From Ruegeria sp. TM1040 (GTDB taxonomy: Bacteria; Pseudomonadota; Alphaproteobacteria; Rhodobacterales; Rhodobacteraceae): a DNA stretch of 64,000 bases. Below are positions 45,773 to 61,422 of the stretch, in pieces. The number at the start of each line of letters is the position of its first letter. Position 1 is the stretch's first letter. The stretch lies in the NCBI RefSeq assembly GCF_000014065.1, contig NC_008044.1, forward strand, positions 3,061,501-3,125,500. Reading direction: 5' to 3'. The notes under the pieces were generated by a model. The model searched no databases. It was not told where the DNA came from and was given only the letters and a program-made list of their open reading frames with translations. The translations under genes were made by a program, and so were the position numbers.

Positions 45773-46338
45773 GGACAGAGCGCCTCGCGTAGATCGTCGT
45801 TTGCGCCCAGCTTACCGCCATAAAGTTAAGCCATAGTTCGACAGATGTACGTATGGCGTGTGGAGTCTTAACCCCACTCCCGCCATCCGGGCACAACATA
45901 TCGCAGAGGGGCAGCGGGTTCAGATCGCGTGATTGTCACGATATGCGCCTCGCCACGGTTGAGTAGAGGTTCTTAACTCTATGCTGGCAATATGGCCTCG
46001 CGACAGCCGCTGACACTGTCAATGTGTTCGATTGTGTTGTCTCTCGGTGGAACCCGCAAGGTTCAGAAGAACATTCCCCGCGAATCGTAGAGTAAACTGG
46101 TGCCCTGGCCCGGGCAAAGAAGGCAGGAATTTGCCCCTCTTTGCAGGCCGCCACAATTGGGTCGCAATGCTGCCTTCGGTCCGCCTCAGGTTCTCCCCCG
46201 AAAAGCCAGGATGGCCCCAATTTTGCCTTGAAAACCATAGGTTTAGGCGTGTTACTTGGGTCAATTTTATCTGTTAAGACCTAGTTAAGAAAGCCCTCTG
46301 TATCCCGGTTTTGGGTGAACAGAAAAGGTGGTGGGAAC
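45773..46338. other. Gene-free stretch between chemoreceptor and motB
   Basis: No credible gene in 566 bases. It holds the divergent promoters of the chemoreceptor and motB. Visible are a TTAAGCCATAGTTCG stretch (partial CtrA-like half-site, about 45826), a GAACC/GGTTC hairpin near 46050, and the full CtrA-type box at 46274-46288. A small RNA cannot be excluded. Confidence 0.5.
46264..46288 (+). promoter_or_regulatory. CtrA-type box before motB
   Basis: TTAA-GACCTAG-TTAA (46274-46288) is an exact TTAA-N7-TTAA, 50 bases before the motB ATG. It is preceded by the 13-mer ATTTTATCTGTTA (46264-46276), which recurs before flgE. Confidence 0.75.
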
Positions 46339-47178
46339 ATGACTGCACAGAGCAACCAGGCTCCGATTATTATCAAGAAGGTCAAGAAGGGTGGCGGGGA
46401 CGGTCACCATGGCGGCGCATGGAAAGTCGCCTATGCCGACTTCGTGACCGCAATGATGGCTTTCTTCCTGCTGATGTGGCTTCTCAATGCGACGACTGAG
46501 AAGCAGCGCAAAGGTCTTGCAGACTACTTTTCGCCGTCGATTCCGCTCAGCCGGGTATCCGGTGGTGGCAACGGCGCGTTCCAGGGGGACACGATGTTCA
46601 CCGAGGACGTGAAGCCGCAGAATGGTGTTGGCGCCACCAAAGAGAATCCGACGGATGCATCGCGTGCTCAGGGGGAAACCGGGGTTGCCGATGACCAGCA
46701 GAGCGACGCAGCCGAAGAGGCGAGCTTCCGCCAGATCGAAGAGGCGCTGATGGGCCGCGGTGGCGAGAGCATGGTGAGCATCGACATGGCGCGTCACATC
46801 GTGACCCGCGTCACCGACGAGGGTCTGATCATCGAATTGTTCGAAACCGAAGATGCAACTCTGTTTGAGGCTGACAGCGAGCGTCCGACCGTGTTGATGC
46901 GCGATCTGCTGCGCATGGTTGCCCGTGTGACCTCTGGGGTCGAGAACAACGTGGCGATCGGCGGACATGTCGCATCGACCCCGGTTGTGATTGCGAACAA
47001 CCCGGTCTGGGCGCTGTCTCATGCACGCGCTGACCAAACGCGGGAACTGCTGCAAGCGGGCGGTATGTCAGCCAAGCGAATCTCTCGGGTGACGGGCTTT
47101 GCGGATCGTGACCTGGCGTCGCAGAACCCGATGTCCGAGCGGAATAACCGCATCACCATCACGCTCCTGCGGAAGTGA
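46339..47178 (+). CDS. motB: Flagellar stator protein MotB
   Basis: A 279-residue stator subunit with one N-terminal helix and a periplasmic peptidoglycan-binding domain. GGAWKVAYADFVTAMMAFFLL carries the proton- or sodium-path aspartate D34. The C-terminal OmpA-like region has SHARADQTRELL and SERNNRITITLL. A plug/linker segment lies between. Unusually, motA is 10.6 kb away. The start MTAQSNQAP is preferred over one 8 codons earlier because GGTGGGA precedes it. It is first in the flagellar block. Confidence 0.95.
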   Translation: MTAQSNQAPIIIKKVKKGGGDGHHGGAWKVAYADFVTAMMAFFLLMWLLNATTEKQRKGLADYFSPSIPLSRVSGGGNGAFQGDTMFTEDVKPQNGVGATKENPTDASRAQGETGVADDQQSDAAEEASFRQIEEALMGRGGESMVSIDMARHIVTRVTDEGLIIELFETEDATLFEADSERPTVLMRDLLRMVARVTSGVENNVAIGGHVASTPVVIANNPVWALSHARADQTRELLQAGGMSAKRISRVTGFADRDLASQNPMSERNNRITITLLRK

Positions 47179-56062: not shown

Positions 56063-56077
56063 TTAACATTCGGTTAG
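56063..56077. promoter_or_regulatory. CtrA-type box between fliF and fliL
   Basis: TTAA-CATTCGG-TTAG (56063-56077), one mismatch from the palindromic box, 58 bases from the fliF start and 46 from the fliL start. It can serve both divergent operons. Confidence 0.7.
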
Positions 56078-56123
56078 TTCCTGTCGGGTTATGAACAGGG
56101 TGCACGACGTTTTAGGGATAGCC

Positions 56124-56648
56124 ATGACAGACGCTGTAGCTGATGTAGAAACGGATCAACCGGCGAAGAAGAGCAAGATGCCCCTTATCATAGGGCTCGT
56201 ACTTGGAATCGCAGGCGCAGGAGGCGGTTTTTATGCCGTCCAGTCAGGCCTTCTTCCCTTTGGTAACACACCCGCGCCCGAAATGGCGCAGGCCACCAAA
56301 GAGGCGCCAGAAGGCGTGGACAAAGGTGAGTCGGCGGAAGAGATCGCCAATCTCGCCTTTATTGAAATGGAGCCAATTGTTGTCACACTGAATAGAGCCA
56401 GTGGGGTCCAGCAACTTCGGTTCCGAGCGCAACTTGAGGTCAATCAAGCCGATCAGGATGAGGTTGAAACAGTCCTCCCCCGGGTTGTCGACGTTCTGAA
56501 CAGCTACCTGCGGGCGCTAGAGCTGGAGGATCTTACCGATCCGATGGCACTGCCAAAACTGCGGGCACAGATGCTACGGCGAATCAATATCGTAACCGGT
56601 CAGGGCCGCGTGCGTGATTTGCTGATCATGGATTTCGTACTCAACTAG
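56124..56648 (+). CDS. fliL: Flagellar basal body-associated protein FliL
   Basis: A 174-residue single-helix protein that supports the stator. The helix PLIIGLVLGIAGAGGGFY is at about 20-37. The periplasmic FliL domain is about 75-174, with FIEMEPIVVTLNRASGVQQL and the end RVRDLLIMDFVLN. First gene of a run fliL, coiled-coil protein, motE-like, motA, large periplasmic protein. Confidence 0.94.
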   Translation: MTDAVADVETDQPAKKSKMPLIIGLVLGIAGAGGGFYAVQSGLLPFGNTPAPEMAQATKEAPEGVDKGESAEEIANLAFIEMEPIVVTLNRASGVQQLRFRAQLEVNQADQDEVETVLPRVVDVLNSYLRALELEDLTDPMALPKLRAQMLRRINIVTGQGRVRDLLIMDFVLN

Positions 56649-56657
56649 GAGGACAGG

Positions 56658-57116
56658 ATGGAACTTATAGCTGATATCCTGCTTGCGGCCGGAGCACTGG
56701 GTGCCGGGTTTTATTGCCTGGTGCTGTCGCGCCGACTGAAACGCTTTAACGATCTCGAAAAAGGGGTCGGAGGCGCGGTGGCGGTGCTCTCGTCGCAGGT
56801 GGACGATCTGAACAAGTCGCTGGTTGCGGCTCGAAAAATGTCTGACGGCTCTAGCCAGGCGCTGGAACAGCTGACCGGGCGCGCCGAATCTGTGGCGCAC
56901 AAGCTGGAGCTGATGATGGCGTCTATGCACGACATCGCGCCTCAGCAGGACGCCAAGGCAAAACCTGCGGCCACCGAGGAAACCGATGCACTCGCAGAGG
57001 CTTACCAGGCAGAGGCTCAGGCTGAAGCTGCAGAGCAGGCCGACGCGCAGGAAGAGGCCAAACCGGCTGGCCTGATGTTTGTTCGGCATAGCCGCAGTCA
57101 GAATCGGGTGGCGTGA
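56658..57116 (+). CDS. Small membrane-anchored coiled-coil protein in the flagellar run
   Basis: A 152-residue protein. The N-terminal helix MELIADILLAAGALGAGFYC anchors it. A basic patch (LSRRLKRFNDLEKG) and a long coiled-coil (about 25-95) follow. The tail is alanine/glutamate-rich, and the end FVRHSRSQNRVA is basic. I associate it with an uncharacterised family (DUF6468) in alphaproteobacterial flagellar loci. It starts 9 bases after fliL and overlaps the motE-like gene (TGATG). Role unknown. Confidence 0.8.
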   Translation: MELIADILLAAGALGAGFYCLVLSRRLKRFNDLEKGVGGAVAVLSSQVDDLNKSLVAARKMSDGSSQALEQLTGRAESVAHKLELMMASMHDIAPQQDAKAKPAATEETDALAEAYQAEAQAEAAEQADAQEEAKPAGLMFVRHSRSQNRVA

Positions 57117-57733
57117 TGGCGAAGGCGAACAAGTCTCAAAAGATGGAAAAAGCGCGGCGCGGCACTTTGATGCTGTTGGCTGTTTTCCTGATGGGCTCTG
57201 CGGTGGTGCGAATCGCACTCGAAGCGGCTCCGGCGATTGCGCGGGAGGTTGCAGATATCAAATCGGATGAAGCGCCTGTCGAAAAACCGGTGGCTGCGAC
57301 GGGTCTCGCTTCGGTGCCCGATTCCGCAGAGATGCAAGCCATGCTTGCTGCGTTCCAAAAGCGCGAAGAAAAACTGGCGGCTCGTGAAGCTGAGGTGGAA
57401 GATCGGATGCGGGCCCTGGAGATCGCCGATCAGGCCATCGATAAAAAGCTGCAGGATCTTGAGGAGGCTGAGCAAAAGTTGCTGGCCACTCTGGCGCTGG
57501 CTGACGGCGCTGCCGAGCAGGACGTCACCACGCTGACAACAGTCTATGAACAGATGAAGCCTAAGGATGCTTCTGCTCTGTTTGAAGAAATGGACCCTAC
57601 GTTTGCAGCCGGGTTTCTTGCACGCATGAAACCGGAAGCCGCGGCGGGTATCATGGCAGGGCTGAGCCCCGAGGCTGCATACACGATCAGTGTCGTGCTT
57701 GCGGGACGCAACGGCGAGGTGCCCAAGGAGTAA
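57116..57733 (+). CDS. motE: MotE-like protein
   Basis: A 205-residue exported or anchored protein. The N-terminal helix is at about 17-40 (GTLMLLAVFLMGSAVV), a coiled-coil spans about 75-135, and the C-terminal MgtE-N-like repeat reads YEQMKPKDASALFEEMDP, then LARMKPEAAAGIMAGLSP. In Sinorhizobium MotE is a periplasmic chaperone for MotC. The gene lies 74 bases before motA. The next large gene may encode its client; see the finding. Confidence 0.8.
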   Translation: MAKANKSQKMEKARRGTLMLLAVFLMGSAVVRIALEAAPAIAREVADIKSDEAPVEKPVAATGLASVPDSAEMQAMLAAFQKREEKLAAREAEVEDRMRALEIADQAIDKKLQDLEEAEQKLLATLALADGAAEQDVTTLTTVYEQMKPKDASALFEEMDPTFAAGFLARMKPEAAAGIMAGLSPEAAYTISVVLAGRNGEVPKE

Positions 57734-57807: not shown

Positions 57808-58677
57808 ATGATCGGGATTGTAGGGATCATTGTGATCTTTGCCATGGTGTTTGGTGGTTATTTGCTTGCCGGCGGCAAGCTGGGCATCATTCTCAAGTCA
57901 CTGCCATTCGAGATGATGATGATTGGCGGTGCTGCCGTTGGCGCGTTTCTCATCAGCAATGACATGGGTGGTGTGAAACACACGCTCAAGGACATGGGCA
58001 AGGTCTTCAAGGGGCCCAAATGGAAACCAGACGACTATAAGGATCTTCTGTGTTTGCTGTTTGCCCTCATCCGAATCGCGCGTGCAAATCCGGTTGAGGT
58101 GGAGCAACATATTGAAGACCCTGAAAACTCGGCTGTGTTCGGGAAGTACCCCAAGATCCTTGCGGACAAAGAAGCGATCAACCTGATCAGCGATACAATG
58201 CGCTCGGCTTCCATGAACTATGACGATCCGCACCAGGTCGAAGAGGTTCTCGAAAAACGGATTGAAGCCAACCTTCACCATGCGCTGCATTCCAGCCACG
58301 CACTGCAGACGATGGCGGATGGTTTGCCCGCGCTTGGGATTGTTGCGGCCGTTCTGGGCGTGATCAAGACGATGGCCTCGATCGATCAACCGCCAGAAGT
58401 TCTGGGCAAGATGATCGGCGGCGCTCTTGTTGGGACGTTCCTGGGTGTTTTCCTGTCCTATGGTCTGGTCGCGCCATTTGCCGGCAAGGTGAAATCCGTG
58501 GTCGAAGAAGACGCGCATTTCTATCAGCTTATCCGCGAGGTTCTTGTGGCGAACCTTCACAACCACGCCGCAGCGATTTGTATTGAGGTGGGGCGTCAGA
58601 ACACGCCATCCCACATTCGGCCCGGGTTCTCCGAGCTGGAGGAAGCTTTGAACGAAGTGAAACAGGGCGCAGCATGA
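57808..58677 (+). CDS. motA: Flagellar stator protein MotA
   Basis: A 289-residue four-helix stator subunit. MIGIVGIIVIFAMVFGGYLL begins helix 1. The cytoplasmic loop has the charged LLCLLFALIRIARANPVEVE and YFGKYPKI-like elements, and helices 3-4 contain LPALGIVAAVLGVIKTMASI and GTFLGVFLSYGLVAPFAGKV with the conserved prolines. It overlaps the following large gene (ATGA). TTTGGAG precedes the ATG. Confidence 0.97.
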   Translation: MIGIVGIIVIFAMVFGGYLLAGGKLGIILKSLPFEMMMIGGAAVGAFLISNDMGGVKHTLKDMGKVFKGPKWKPDDYKDLLCLLFALIRIARANPVEVEQHIEDPENSAVFGKYPKILADKEAINLISDTMRSASMNYDDPHQVEEVLEKRIEANLHHALHSSHALQTMADGLPALGIVAAVLGVIKTMASIDQPPEVLGKMIGGALVGTFLGVFLSYGLVAPFAGKVKSVVEEDAHFYQLIREVLVANLHNHAAAICIEVGRQNTPSHIRPGFSELEEALNEVKQGAA

Positions 58678-61088
58678 TATCGCGAGCAATCGCATTTGCG
58701 GCTGCAGTAGTGGTCGCTGGATATGCAGAAGCACAAACAATCGTAACACGCTCGGGAGAGCACGACACATTCACCCGCTTGGTGATGCGTCTACCCGACG
58801 GTATCGAGTGGTCACTGACCCAAAATGAAAACGTCGCGACCGTCAATGTTGGGTCTCCGACAGCTGTCTTTAACACGCAATCCGTATTCGATCTCATTCC
58901 CCGTACCCGCATTCGCTCCGTGAGCCAGGCTGCCCCAGGTCAACCACTGCGCATTGATCTCGGGTGTGAGTGTAGCGTCGATTATTACCAGCAGTCCGAT
59001 GGCTACTTGGTGATCGACGTGCGCGAGGGGCGCTCGCTGACTCTGGCAGAACCGTCCGATCGTGCAAGCCTGCCGCTTACTTTTCCGAGCGCTCGCGCAG
59101 GGCGTGACTTCAACATTGACTCGCGTGATCTGGCCAGTGCGCGCGTTGCAATGGGTCTTGAAGATGCAGTTGAGCAGACATTCGGATCCGCGAAGCGACA
59201 ACCGCTCCATACGGGTCCGGTAGAGATCCCTTTGCTCGGTGATGAAACTGGTATTGCGCCTGCGCAAAAGGCCGAAGATGTCGCCGTGCCGGACACCAAA
59301 GACGACGATGACAAGCCTTCGCCTGAGACACTGACTGCAGATTCAAGTCTGCTCATGGATCTTGAGGAGAATCGTCGCGCGGCGTTGGTCAACGATACCG
59401 AGACACGGTTGCTACAACAAATCGGGCGTGCCAGCGATCAGGGTCTTCTCAACCCGAATGAACAGGGCCAAGCGGCGCTTCAACTCGACCCTTTGGGGAA
59501 CGAGAATAGGCCTCTCAATCCTCTGGACAATATGTCCGTTACATCTGCAATTGATCGTGAAACAGGTCTTTTTGCAGTATCCAATGGTCGTGATGAAGCG
59601 GCATCTCATTGTATTCCAGACCTTGAAATAGCGGTTTACAAATGGGGTAAGGAAACACCATTTGCAGAGCAGATTGGCGCCTTGAGAAACGAAATTCTCG
59701 GTGAGTTCGATCAACTCAATCGCGATGCGACCCTGAAACTCGCGAGGACATACCTCTATTTTGGCTTTGGCGCGGAGGCGGTTTCGACGCTTCACATGCT
59801 CTCCGAGAGCAATCTCAAGCCGCGCTCGCGTGAGATCATGACGACAATTGCGCAGATCCTCGATGGGGAAGAACTTCCTGTAAATACGATTTTTTCCGGC
59901 CAGCAAACCTGTAGTGGCGGCGCGGCCTTCTGGGCTGCGATGGCGGACGGCGTCGTTAAAAAGGGGGCAAACTCTGACGCAATTCAGCAGACCTTCGCAC
60001 GTTTGCCCGCGCATCTGCGTGTCCAACTTGGTGCGCGCATGACCAGGCTCTTTGCTGAAGCCGGAGACCCAAGCGTTGCAAAAGCGACCTTGCGGTCTGT
60101 TGATCGCACCGGGGTCGAAGGGGTGCCGGATCGCAACCTGGCAGAGGCGGCAATTGCGGAGCTTGACGGTGACACGGATGCGGTGGCTCGCAACCTCACA
60201 GAAGAAGTTGCGGAGCAAAGCCAAAACACCCCGCTCGCGCTCATCGAACTTGTCGAATTGAGTTATGCGGAACGTCGGGCGCTTTCCCCGGATGTTCCGG
60301 ATCTGACGGCCTCCTACGAGCTTGAGTACCGAGACGCCGCATTGGGTGCAGAACTGCGAAAAGCCGAAGTTATGGCGTTGGCGCTGACCGGTAGTTTTGA
60401 CGCGGCATTCAAAAAGAGTGCCAAGCTTGAAGAGCGCGATGGGCTCATGGCGCGAGATTCTGTAAATACCCCGCTGATGACACTGCTTACTGAGAACGCG
60501 GATGACGTGACCTTCTTGAAGTACGCTCTGATCTTTGCTCACGAGGCAGGTGCGACGCGTGCGGGCCAGGTTGGGGACATCATTGCGCGCCGGTTGCTTG
60601 ATCTGGGTTTTGCAGAGCAGGCGGAGATGATCCTGCGCAAAATGAGCCTCGAACCTCAAAATGAAGACCGCCGCATGATGAGTGCAGAGGCGCATCTGCA
60701 ATTGGACCAACCCCAACGCGCCCTGGTGGAACTGATGGGGCTCGAAGGTCAGCAGGCTGATCGCATGCGCGCAGAGGCGCTTTGGCGCAACAAGGAATAT
60801 GAACGCGCAAGCGAATACATGATGTCGGCGCAAGACCTGGACGGTGCCGCACGGGGGTTCTGGCTGTCCGAGGATCTGGAAGCTGTGGAGGCCATCAGTG
60901 AGGACGCAGCTCCGTTTCGGTCTGTGGCCGAGGTGACCAAGCAGATCGATTCCGCTGTGCGTGAGCCCGAAGGCTTGCCGCCTTTGGCCGAAGCGCGCGC
61001 GCTGGTAGAGAGCAGTGTCGGCGCAAGATCTTCGATTGAGGAGCTGTTGCGCAAAGTGGAGCGCACGCCAGATGAAGTCGAGGATTGA
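58674..61088 (+). CDS. Large exported helical-repeat protein next to motA (MotC-like?)
   Basis: An 804-residue protein of no named family. The signal peptide is MISRAIAFAAAVVVAGYAEA. Residues 22-117 form a beta-rich domain resembling AMIN-type modules, with LGCECS (C98, C100). An acidic, probably disordered linker (about 175-300) contains KDDDDKPSPETL. The remaining 480 residues are helical, with TPR-like repeats such as LKLARTYLYFGFGAEAVSTL and AEAHLQLDQPQRALVELMGL. The start overlaps the motA stop, so the two proteins are made together. Sharing an operon with fliL, a motE-like gene and motA points to a periplasmic motor role, possibly the counterpart of MotC. Confidence 0.85.
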   Translation: MISRAIAFAAAVVVAGYAEAQTIVTRSGEHDTFTRLVMRLPDGIEWSLTQNENVATVNVGSPTAVFNTQSVFDLIPRTRIRSVSQAAPGQPLRIDLGCECSVDYYQQSDGYLVIDVREGRSLTLAEPSDRASLPLTFPSARAGRDFNIDSRDLASARVAMGLEDAVEQTFGSAKRQPLHTGPVEIPLLGDETGIAPAQKAEDVAVPDTKDDDDKPSPETLTADSSLLMDLEENRRAALVNDTETRLLQQIGRASDQGLLNPNEQGQAALQLDPLGNENRPLNPLDNMSVTSAIDRETGLFAVSNGRDEAASHCIPDLEIAVYKWGKETPFAEQIGALRNEILGEFDQLNRDATLKLARTYLYFGFGAEAVSTLHMLSESNLKPRSREIMTTIAQILDGEELPVNTIFSGQQTCSGGAAFWAAMADGVVKKGANSDAIQQTFARLPAHLRVQLGARMTRLFAEAGDPSVAKATLRSVDRTGVEGVPDRNLAEAAIAELDGDTDAVARNLTEEVAEQSQNTPLALIELVELSYAERRALSPDVPDLTASYELEYRDAALGAELRKAEVMALALTGSFDAAFKKSAKLEERDGLMARDSVNTPLMTLLTENADDVTFLKYALIFAHEAGATRAGQVGDIIARRLLDLGFAEQAEMILRKMSLEPQNEDRRMMSAEAHLQLDQPQRALVELMGLEGQQADRMRAEALWRNKEYERASEYMMSAQDLDGAARGFWLSEDLEAVEAISEDAAPFRSVAEVTKQIDSAVREPEGLPPLAEARALVESSVGARSSIEELLRKVERTPDEVED

Positions 61089-61422
61089 CCTACAACGGAC
61101 TTGGTTTCGCGACAGAATACGAATGGCCGCGCTCTCTGAGTTCGGCCATTTCGCTTTGCACTGATAACACTTTTTAAAGCATAGCGGCCTAGCTTGAGGA
61201 CTAGGGAAGAATCCTCATCTGGAACAGGCAGAATGCCAGTGCATGACGATAGACACGCCGGGCGCAACGCGCGGAATTTGTTTGCTGTAGAACGTGGGAC
61301 AGGCCATGTTGCTGCAGTTTTTGGCATTTCGGCCTCTCTAGATCAGACTTCAGCCCCCTCTCACTCCCGGTGCTTATGCACTGCCGGACCGCTTCTGATC
61401 GCTTTCACATAAGAGAAAATCC
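61089..61422. other. Gene-free stretch before flhA
   Basis: A 334-base gap. Nothing convincing was found: a 72-codon frame (61194-61412) lacks a ribosome site and looks non-coding. It probably holds the flhA promoter, but I see no CtrA-type box. Confidence 0.5.

Follow-up and report, generated by a model that had tools for sequence, protein, structure and literature searches.

The gene behind motA in Ruegeria sp. TM1040 as a motK (CP4) orthologue, with motE-linked relatives in other Alphaproteobacteria

Genomic organization of the flagellar locus

Our analysis revealed a conserved flagellar operon on the plus strand of the window, i.e. the whole 64-kb stretch of Ruegeria sp. TM1040 DNA that was analysed and to which all coordinates refer. 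The operon opens with fliL (56091..56648; PF03748, E 1.4e-14), which is followed by a pflI-like gene (56658..57116) that encodes a DUF6468 protein, with a match to PF20072 (E 1.6e-4) below the cut-off, and takes the position of pflI in Cereibacter sphaeroides, named CP2 in Phaeobacter inhibens. The next gene, motE (57113..57733; CP3 slot), encodes a member of a conserved protein family with an MgtE_N-type, FlgY/FlbB-like C-terminal domain; its match to PF03448 (E 4e-5) lies just below the cut-off and that to the FlbB model (E 1e-5) far below its cut-off. It immediately precedes motA (57808..58677), the gene for a stator subunit (TIGR03818 MotA1, 359.5 bits, cut-off 303.8). The gene under study, motK (58674..61088, plus strand), lies directly 3′ of motA, as is characteristic of motK in operons of the type fliL-pflI-motE-motA-motK.

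A previous sequence-only reading of this DNA had pointed to a MotE-like gene upstream and to an overlap of the start codon with the motA stop codon, and both observations proved correct. The motA stop and the motK ATG share the letters ATGA, a 4-nt overlap that recurred in 63 of the 71 measurable loci of named genomes, with a 1-nt overlap in another four. Linkage to motA was likewise preserved in related genomes: the order of the five genes was kept in every locus that contained all of them (67/67), including that of the Paracoccaceae genus Allgaiera.

The second stator subunit, MotB, is encoded 11 kb upstream on the same strand (46315..47178; MotB_plug match, E 2.8e-20, at about 46375-46536), and the genes that follow motB are of the flgE/flgK type. 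By direct reading of the sequence we noted a putative CtrA-like site, TTAACATTCGGTTAG (56063..56077, plus strand), between the divergent fliF and fliL genes; in C. sphaeroides one CtrA site serves both promoters of the corresponding fliF/fliL region (PMC6180460). Another putative CtrA-like site, TTAAGACCTAGTTAA, is located upstream of motB (46274-46288) and is the only match to TTAA-N6..8-TTAA within the 64-kb window. The interval between motK and flhA (61089-61422) is too short for sltF, which encodes a lytic transglycosylase, unlike in P. inhibens and C. sphaeroides and consistent with the published description (PMC12363192).

Domain architecture and predicted structure of the motK product

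The open reading frame 58674-61088 starts with ATG and encodes 804 amino acids, with coordinates and length exactly as previously given. This is far above chance length, since base shuffling of the region (300 times) gave stop-free runs of 297 codons at most. The predicted signal peptide comprises residues 1-20 (58674..58733), a hydrophobic stretch ending with A-E-A before Q; it is the only hydropathy maximum of the protein, and no further membrane segment was found. The product would thus be exported to the periplasm. It is predicted to continue with an AMIN-fold beta domain (residues 21-118; 58734..59027), a mostly disordered acidic linker (residues 119-229; 59028..59360) and a TPR-like alpha solenoid (residues 230-800; 59361..61073). 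This agrees with the sequence-only reading, which had described a signal peptide, a beta-rich N-terminal module, an acidic linker and a long stretch of TPR-like helices. The linker contains 21 D/E versus 11 K/R residues and has a pI of 4.36, with the caveat that the whole mature protein is likewise acidic (pI 4.6). The mature protein contains four cysteines (residues 98, 100, 313 and 413), each invariant across 41 relatives, and these may form periplasmic disulphides.

AlphaFold2 prediction of the full protein with the 41 relatives gave a pLDDT of 80.7, with nine strands in residues 21-118 and helices from 230 to 795. Within the linker, low pLDDT indicated disorder at about residues 121-148 and 171-229, with a helix (150-170) in between, while in the solenoid pLDDT was mostly above 90 from residue 310 to 730. 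When predicted alone, the N-terminal part reached a pLDDT of 88 and the beta domain about 95. The five best matches of the beta domain to solved structures were PilQ (Z 11.2), AmiC (11.2), PilQ (10.0), Slr0280 (9.8) and PilQ (9.5), followed by small heat-shock folds with Z 8.4 and lower. The matched regions of PilQ and AmiC are AMIN domains, as is that of Slr0280. According to the model, the roughly 100 residues that follow the signal peptide therefore adopt an AMIN fold. In sequence searches this domain is faint, with a weak Pfam AMIN-like match in only four of 41 family members. The helical part scored just below the cut-off for Pfam TPR_19, which 22 of the 41 relatives match, and it also carries a 407-column profile match to homologues in other families (see below). 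Sequence-profile searches against solved structures returned generic TPR matches and a weak AMIN match to Slr0280, and nothing else. We attribute a weak NCBIfam hit to a type III secretion chaperone model (17.6 bits, cut-off 70) to the TPR repeats and rejected it as an artefact.

With the whole model as query, the first PDB match in Foldseek was a flagellar periplasmic scaffold protein of Campylobacter jejuni (9hmf_K, E 3.3e-5). The superposition of the alpha-carbon model was poor (TM 0.15, rmsd 44), so that the local architecture is alike and the global shape is not the same; moreover, long solenoids resemble many TPR proteins. The entry for the N-domain of PflA, 9leq_A, scored Z 7.5, tied with unrelated folds. 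The likeness to PflA of C. jejuni and FlcB of Borrelia is one of type: these flagellar periplasmic scaffolds also have a long TPR solenoid and a MotE-like E-ring partner, and PflA has a beta domain. The motK product is modelled with the PflA-like combination of an AMIN/beta-sandwich domain and a long TPR solenoid without a transmembrane helix. The resemblance is structural only.

Identification as MotK and probable identity with CP4

MotK was described in 2024 in C. sphaeroides (PLoS One; PMC10954123) from an operon fliL-pflI-motE-motA-motK. It resides in the periplasm, combines an AMIN-like N-terminal domain with TPR-like helices, is essential for rotation of the Fla2 flagellum and binds MotE and MotB2; the motK mutant is paralysed, MotE is unstable without MotK, and localization of MotK to the flagellated pole requires MotA2 and MotB2 (PMC10954123). 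The same study already pointed out MotK-like proteins in Roseobacteraceae, e.g. Dshi_3259. The protein encoded in the window shares with C. sphaeroides MotK (RSWS8N_12065, Q3IY86) the operon, a signal peptide, an AMIN-like domain of about 100 residues, a disordered linker and the TPR-like part, and differs from it in length (804 versus 652 amino acids). This likeness was judged by operon slot, architecture and Paracoccaceae relatives, of which the Allgaiera protein is homologous to the motK product.

A second, independent line of evidence comes from a transposon screen in P. inhibens (mSystems 2025; PMC12363192), in which mutants in CP4 (PGA1_c35690), which follows motA in a flagellar cluster of this type, were non-motile and could be complemented. 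In that cluster CP2 occupies the pflI slot and CP3 the motE slot. CP4 was published as a conserved protein, the functions of the CP proteins were termed enigmatic, and MotK is named nowhere in the text (PMC12363192). An aligned Phaeobacter relative, P. italicus, was about 50% identical to the motK product. From the operon slot and family membership we infer that CP4 is MotK. The gene had previously been regarded as unassigned, a description that must be dropped: the protein corresponds to MotK of C. sphaeroides and to CP4 of P. inhibens. Its family has been described, mutants of close relatives have been published, and it is thus largely explained.

Proposed role and alternative interpretations

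We are highly confident that 58674-61088 is motK, and most likely it encodes an exported AMIN-TPR scaffold that brings MotE and MotB together for the recruitment or opening of stators. The gene, its operon, the predicted fold and the family membership come from the present analysis, while essentiality, periplasmic location and binding to MotE and MotB2 were established by others in relatives. Close to the motor, peptidoglycan is probably held by the AMIN-fold domain. The probable partners of the TPR solenoid are MotE, the presumed component of an E-ring that surrounds the MS-ring, and the periplasmic region of MotB, bound through putative contact surfaces. Such binding would recruit the MotA/MotB stators to the motor or switch them open, MotK would take a spoke-like place in the motor, and cells without it would be expected to make flagella that do not turn.

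The sequence-only reading had proposed a lineage-specific periplasmic counterpart of MotC in Rhodobacterales. Its functional part agrees with published C. sphaeroides MotK, which is periplasmic, essential for rotation and bound to MotE and MotB2, whereas the terms unassigned and lineage-specific do not hold. Descent of the protein from MotC proper, with later gain of the AMIN domain, would be compatible with its being MotK. MotC of Sinorhizobium meliloti is likewise periplasmic, TPR-rich, a partner of MotE and needed for rotation, and in a 2026 review the two proteins figure as divergent counterparts whose homology is argued from structure (PMC13023049). However, according to the literature MotC lacks an AMIN domain and motC follows motB, whereas the gene described here follows motA, and C. 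sphaeroides has been reported to have no MotC homologue. A search for MotC candidates among the genes that follow motB, covering about 50 loci of Alphaproteobacteria, found none there. We regard descent from MotC as possible and rather doubtful.

The main rival view, which seems unlikely to us, is that the protein chiefly serves as an assembly factor or periplasmic chaperone, e.g. for MotE, and does not stay in the stator scaffold as a permanent component. The instability of C. sphaeroides MotE without MotK (PMC10954123) would fit such a role, as would the reduced release of flagellar proteins by the P. inhibens CP4 mutant compared to the wild type and the absence of visible flagella in CP2 and CP3 mutants (PMC12363192). 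Since the C. sphaeroides motE mutant is flagellated and paralysed, the aflagellate CP2 and CP3 mutants leave room for assembly roles or polar effects. However, the CP4 mutant still exports FliC, FlgK and FlgE (PMC12363192), and the polar localization of C. sphaeroides MotK via MotA2/MotB2 and its binding to MotB2 (PMC10954123) speak for a place at the motor itself. In our opinion it is hardly credible that the gene encodes just any exported TPR protein, neighbouring motA but without a function in the flagellum: TPR solenoids do occur widely and the sequence changes quickly, with about 50% identity among relatives where motA keeps 90%, but the strict conservation of the operon and the co-occurrence with MotE argue against it, and it is contradicted by the non-motile, complemented CP4 mutants of the near relative P. 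inhibens (PMC12363192).

Distribution and relatives in other alphaproteobacterial families

Among the 149 genomes sampled within the order, the family profile detected MotK in 112, each of which also encoded MotE (112/112). MotE without MotK was found in 14 genomes of the order. In 13 of these (G036, G052, G066, G078, G080, G084, G097, G100, G122, G135, G143, G168 and G174) MotK was not detectable and MotE is divergent, with E no better than about 1e-22; this MotE probably stems from another flagellar type, the horizontally spread fla2/fla3. The sole MotK-less genome with a typical MotE, G170, is a fragmented draft.

Outside the family, the MotK profile gave weak matches (E 4e-14 to 1e-3) in 86 genomes, mostly to frames of about 1000-1400 amino acids; absences there mean little because scoring was limited to the top three candidates of each genome. 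In 60 of the 86 cases a motE match lay upstream of it on the same strand, at a distance of up to 9 kb. When 14 of the outside proteins were compared profile to profile with the Rhodobacterales set, the probability was 99.9% (E 5e-31, 407 columns), a score that TPR repeats can inflate and of which the motE linkage is independent. The assumption that the protein is lineage-specific is thereby overturned, as the profile finds a motE-linked family in many other alphaproteobacterial families. A typical outside locus reads fliL-fliM-pflI-motE-cheY-cheZ, two MotB_plug proteins and the motK-like gene, the fliM label resting on the N-terminal sequence; elsewhere the motK-like gene directly follows motE. 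Many non-Rhodobacterales have no motA between motE and the MotK-like gene; at that place (L199:3577-6034, L203:3165-5689, L205:3620-5730 and comparable loci) they carry cheY, cheZ or both, together with two short MotB_plug-type proteins. These short proteins have about 200-250 amino acids, and one of those in L199 carries an OmpA domain.

The layout with motK-like directly after motE recalls Caulobacter crescentus, where CC_2058, a large exported protein with an AMIN-like N-terminus, is encoded after the MotE homologue CC_2059. The CC_2058 mutant is Mot- (PMC10954123). CC_2058 was reported to be dissimilar to MotK by BLAST; loci of CC_2058 layout were found here (e.g. L212). On balance we lean towards the view that MotK/CP4 and the giant CC_2058-type AMIN-TPR proteins form one sequence-traceable family tied to motE, and that in many non-Rhodobacterales a separate set of MotB-like partners could join the same motor scaffold. 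It has been stated that CP1-4 are restricted to the fla1-type cluster of Rhodobacterales (PMC12363192); our evidence speaks against this, at least for CP2-CP4.

The useful additions of this analysis are the link between CP4 and MotK and the motE-linked alphaproteobacterial family. The former joins two recent lines of work and closes an open annotation, since an enigmatic motility gene of roseobacters becomes readable as MotK, with CP3 as MotE and CP2 as PflI. The latter provides sequence-level support for the structural proposals of PMC11870540 and PMC13023049: a recent study used structure and gene neighbourhood, and this type of motor scaffold appears to be traceable by sequence across the Alphaproteobacteria.
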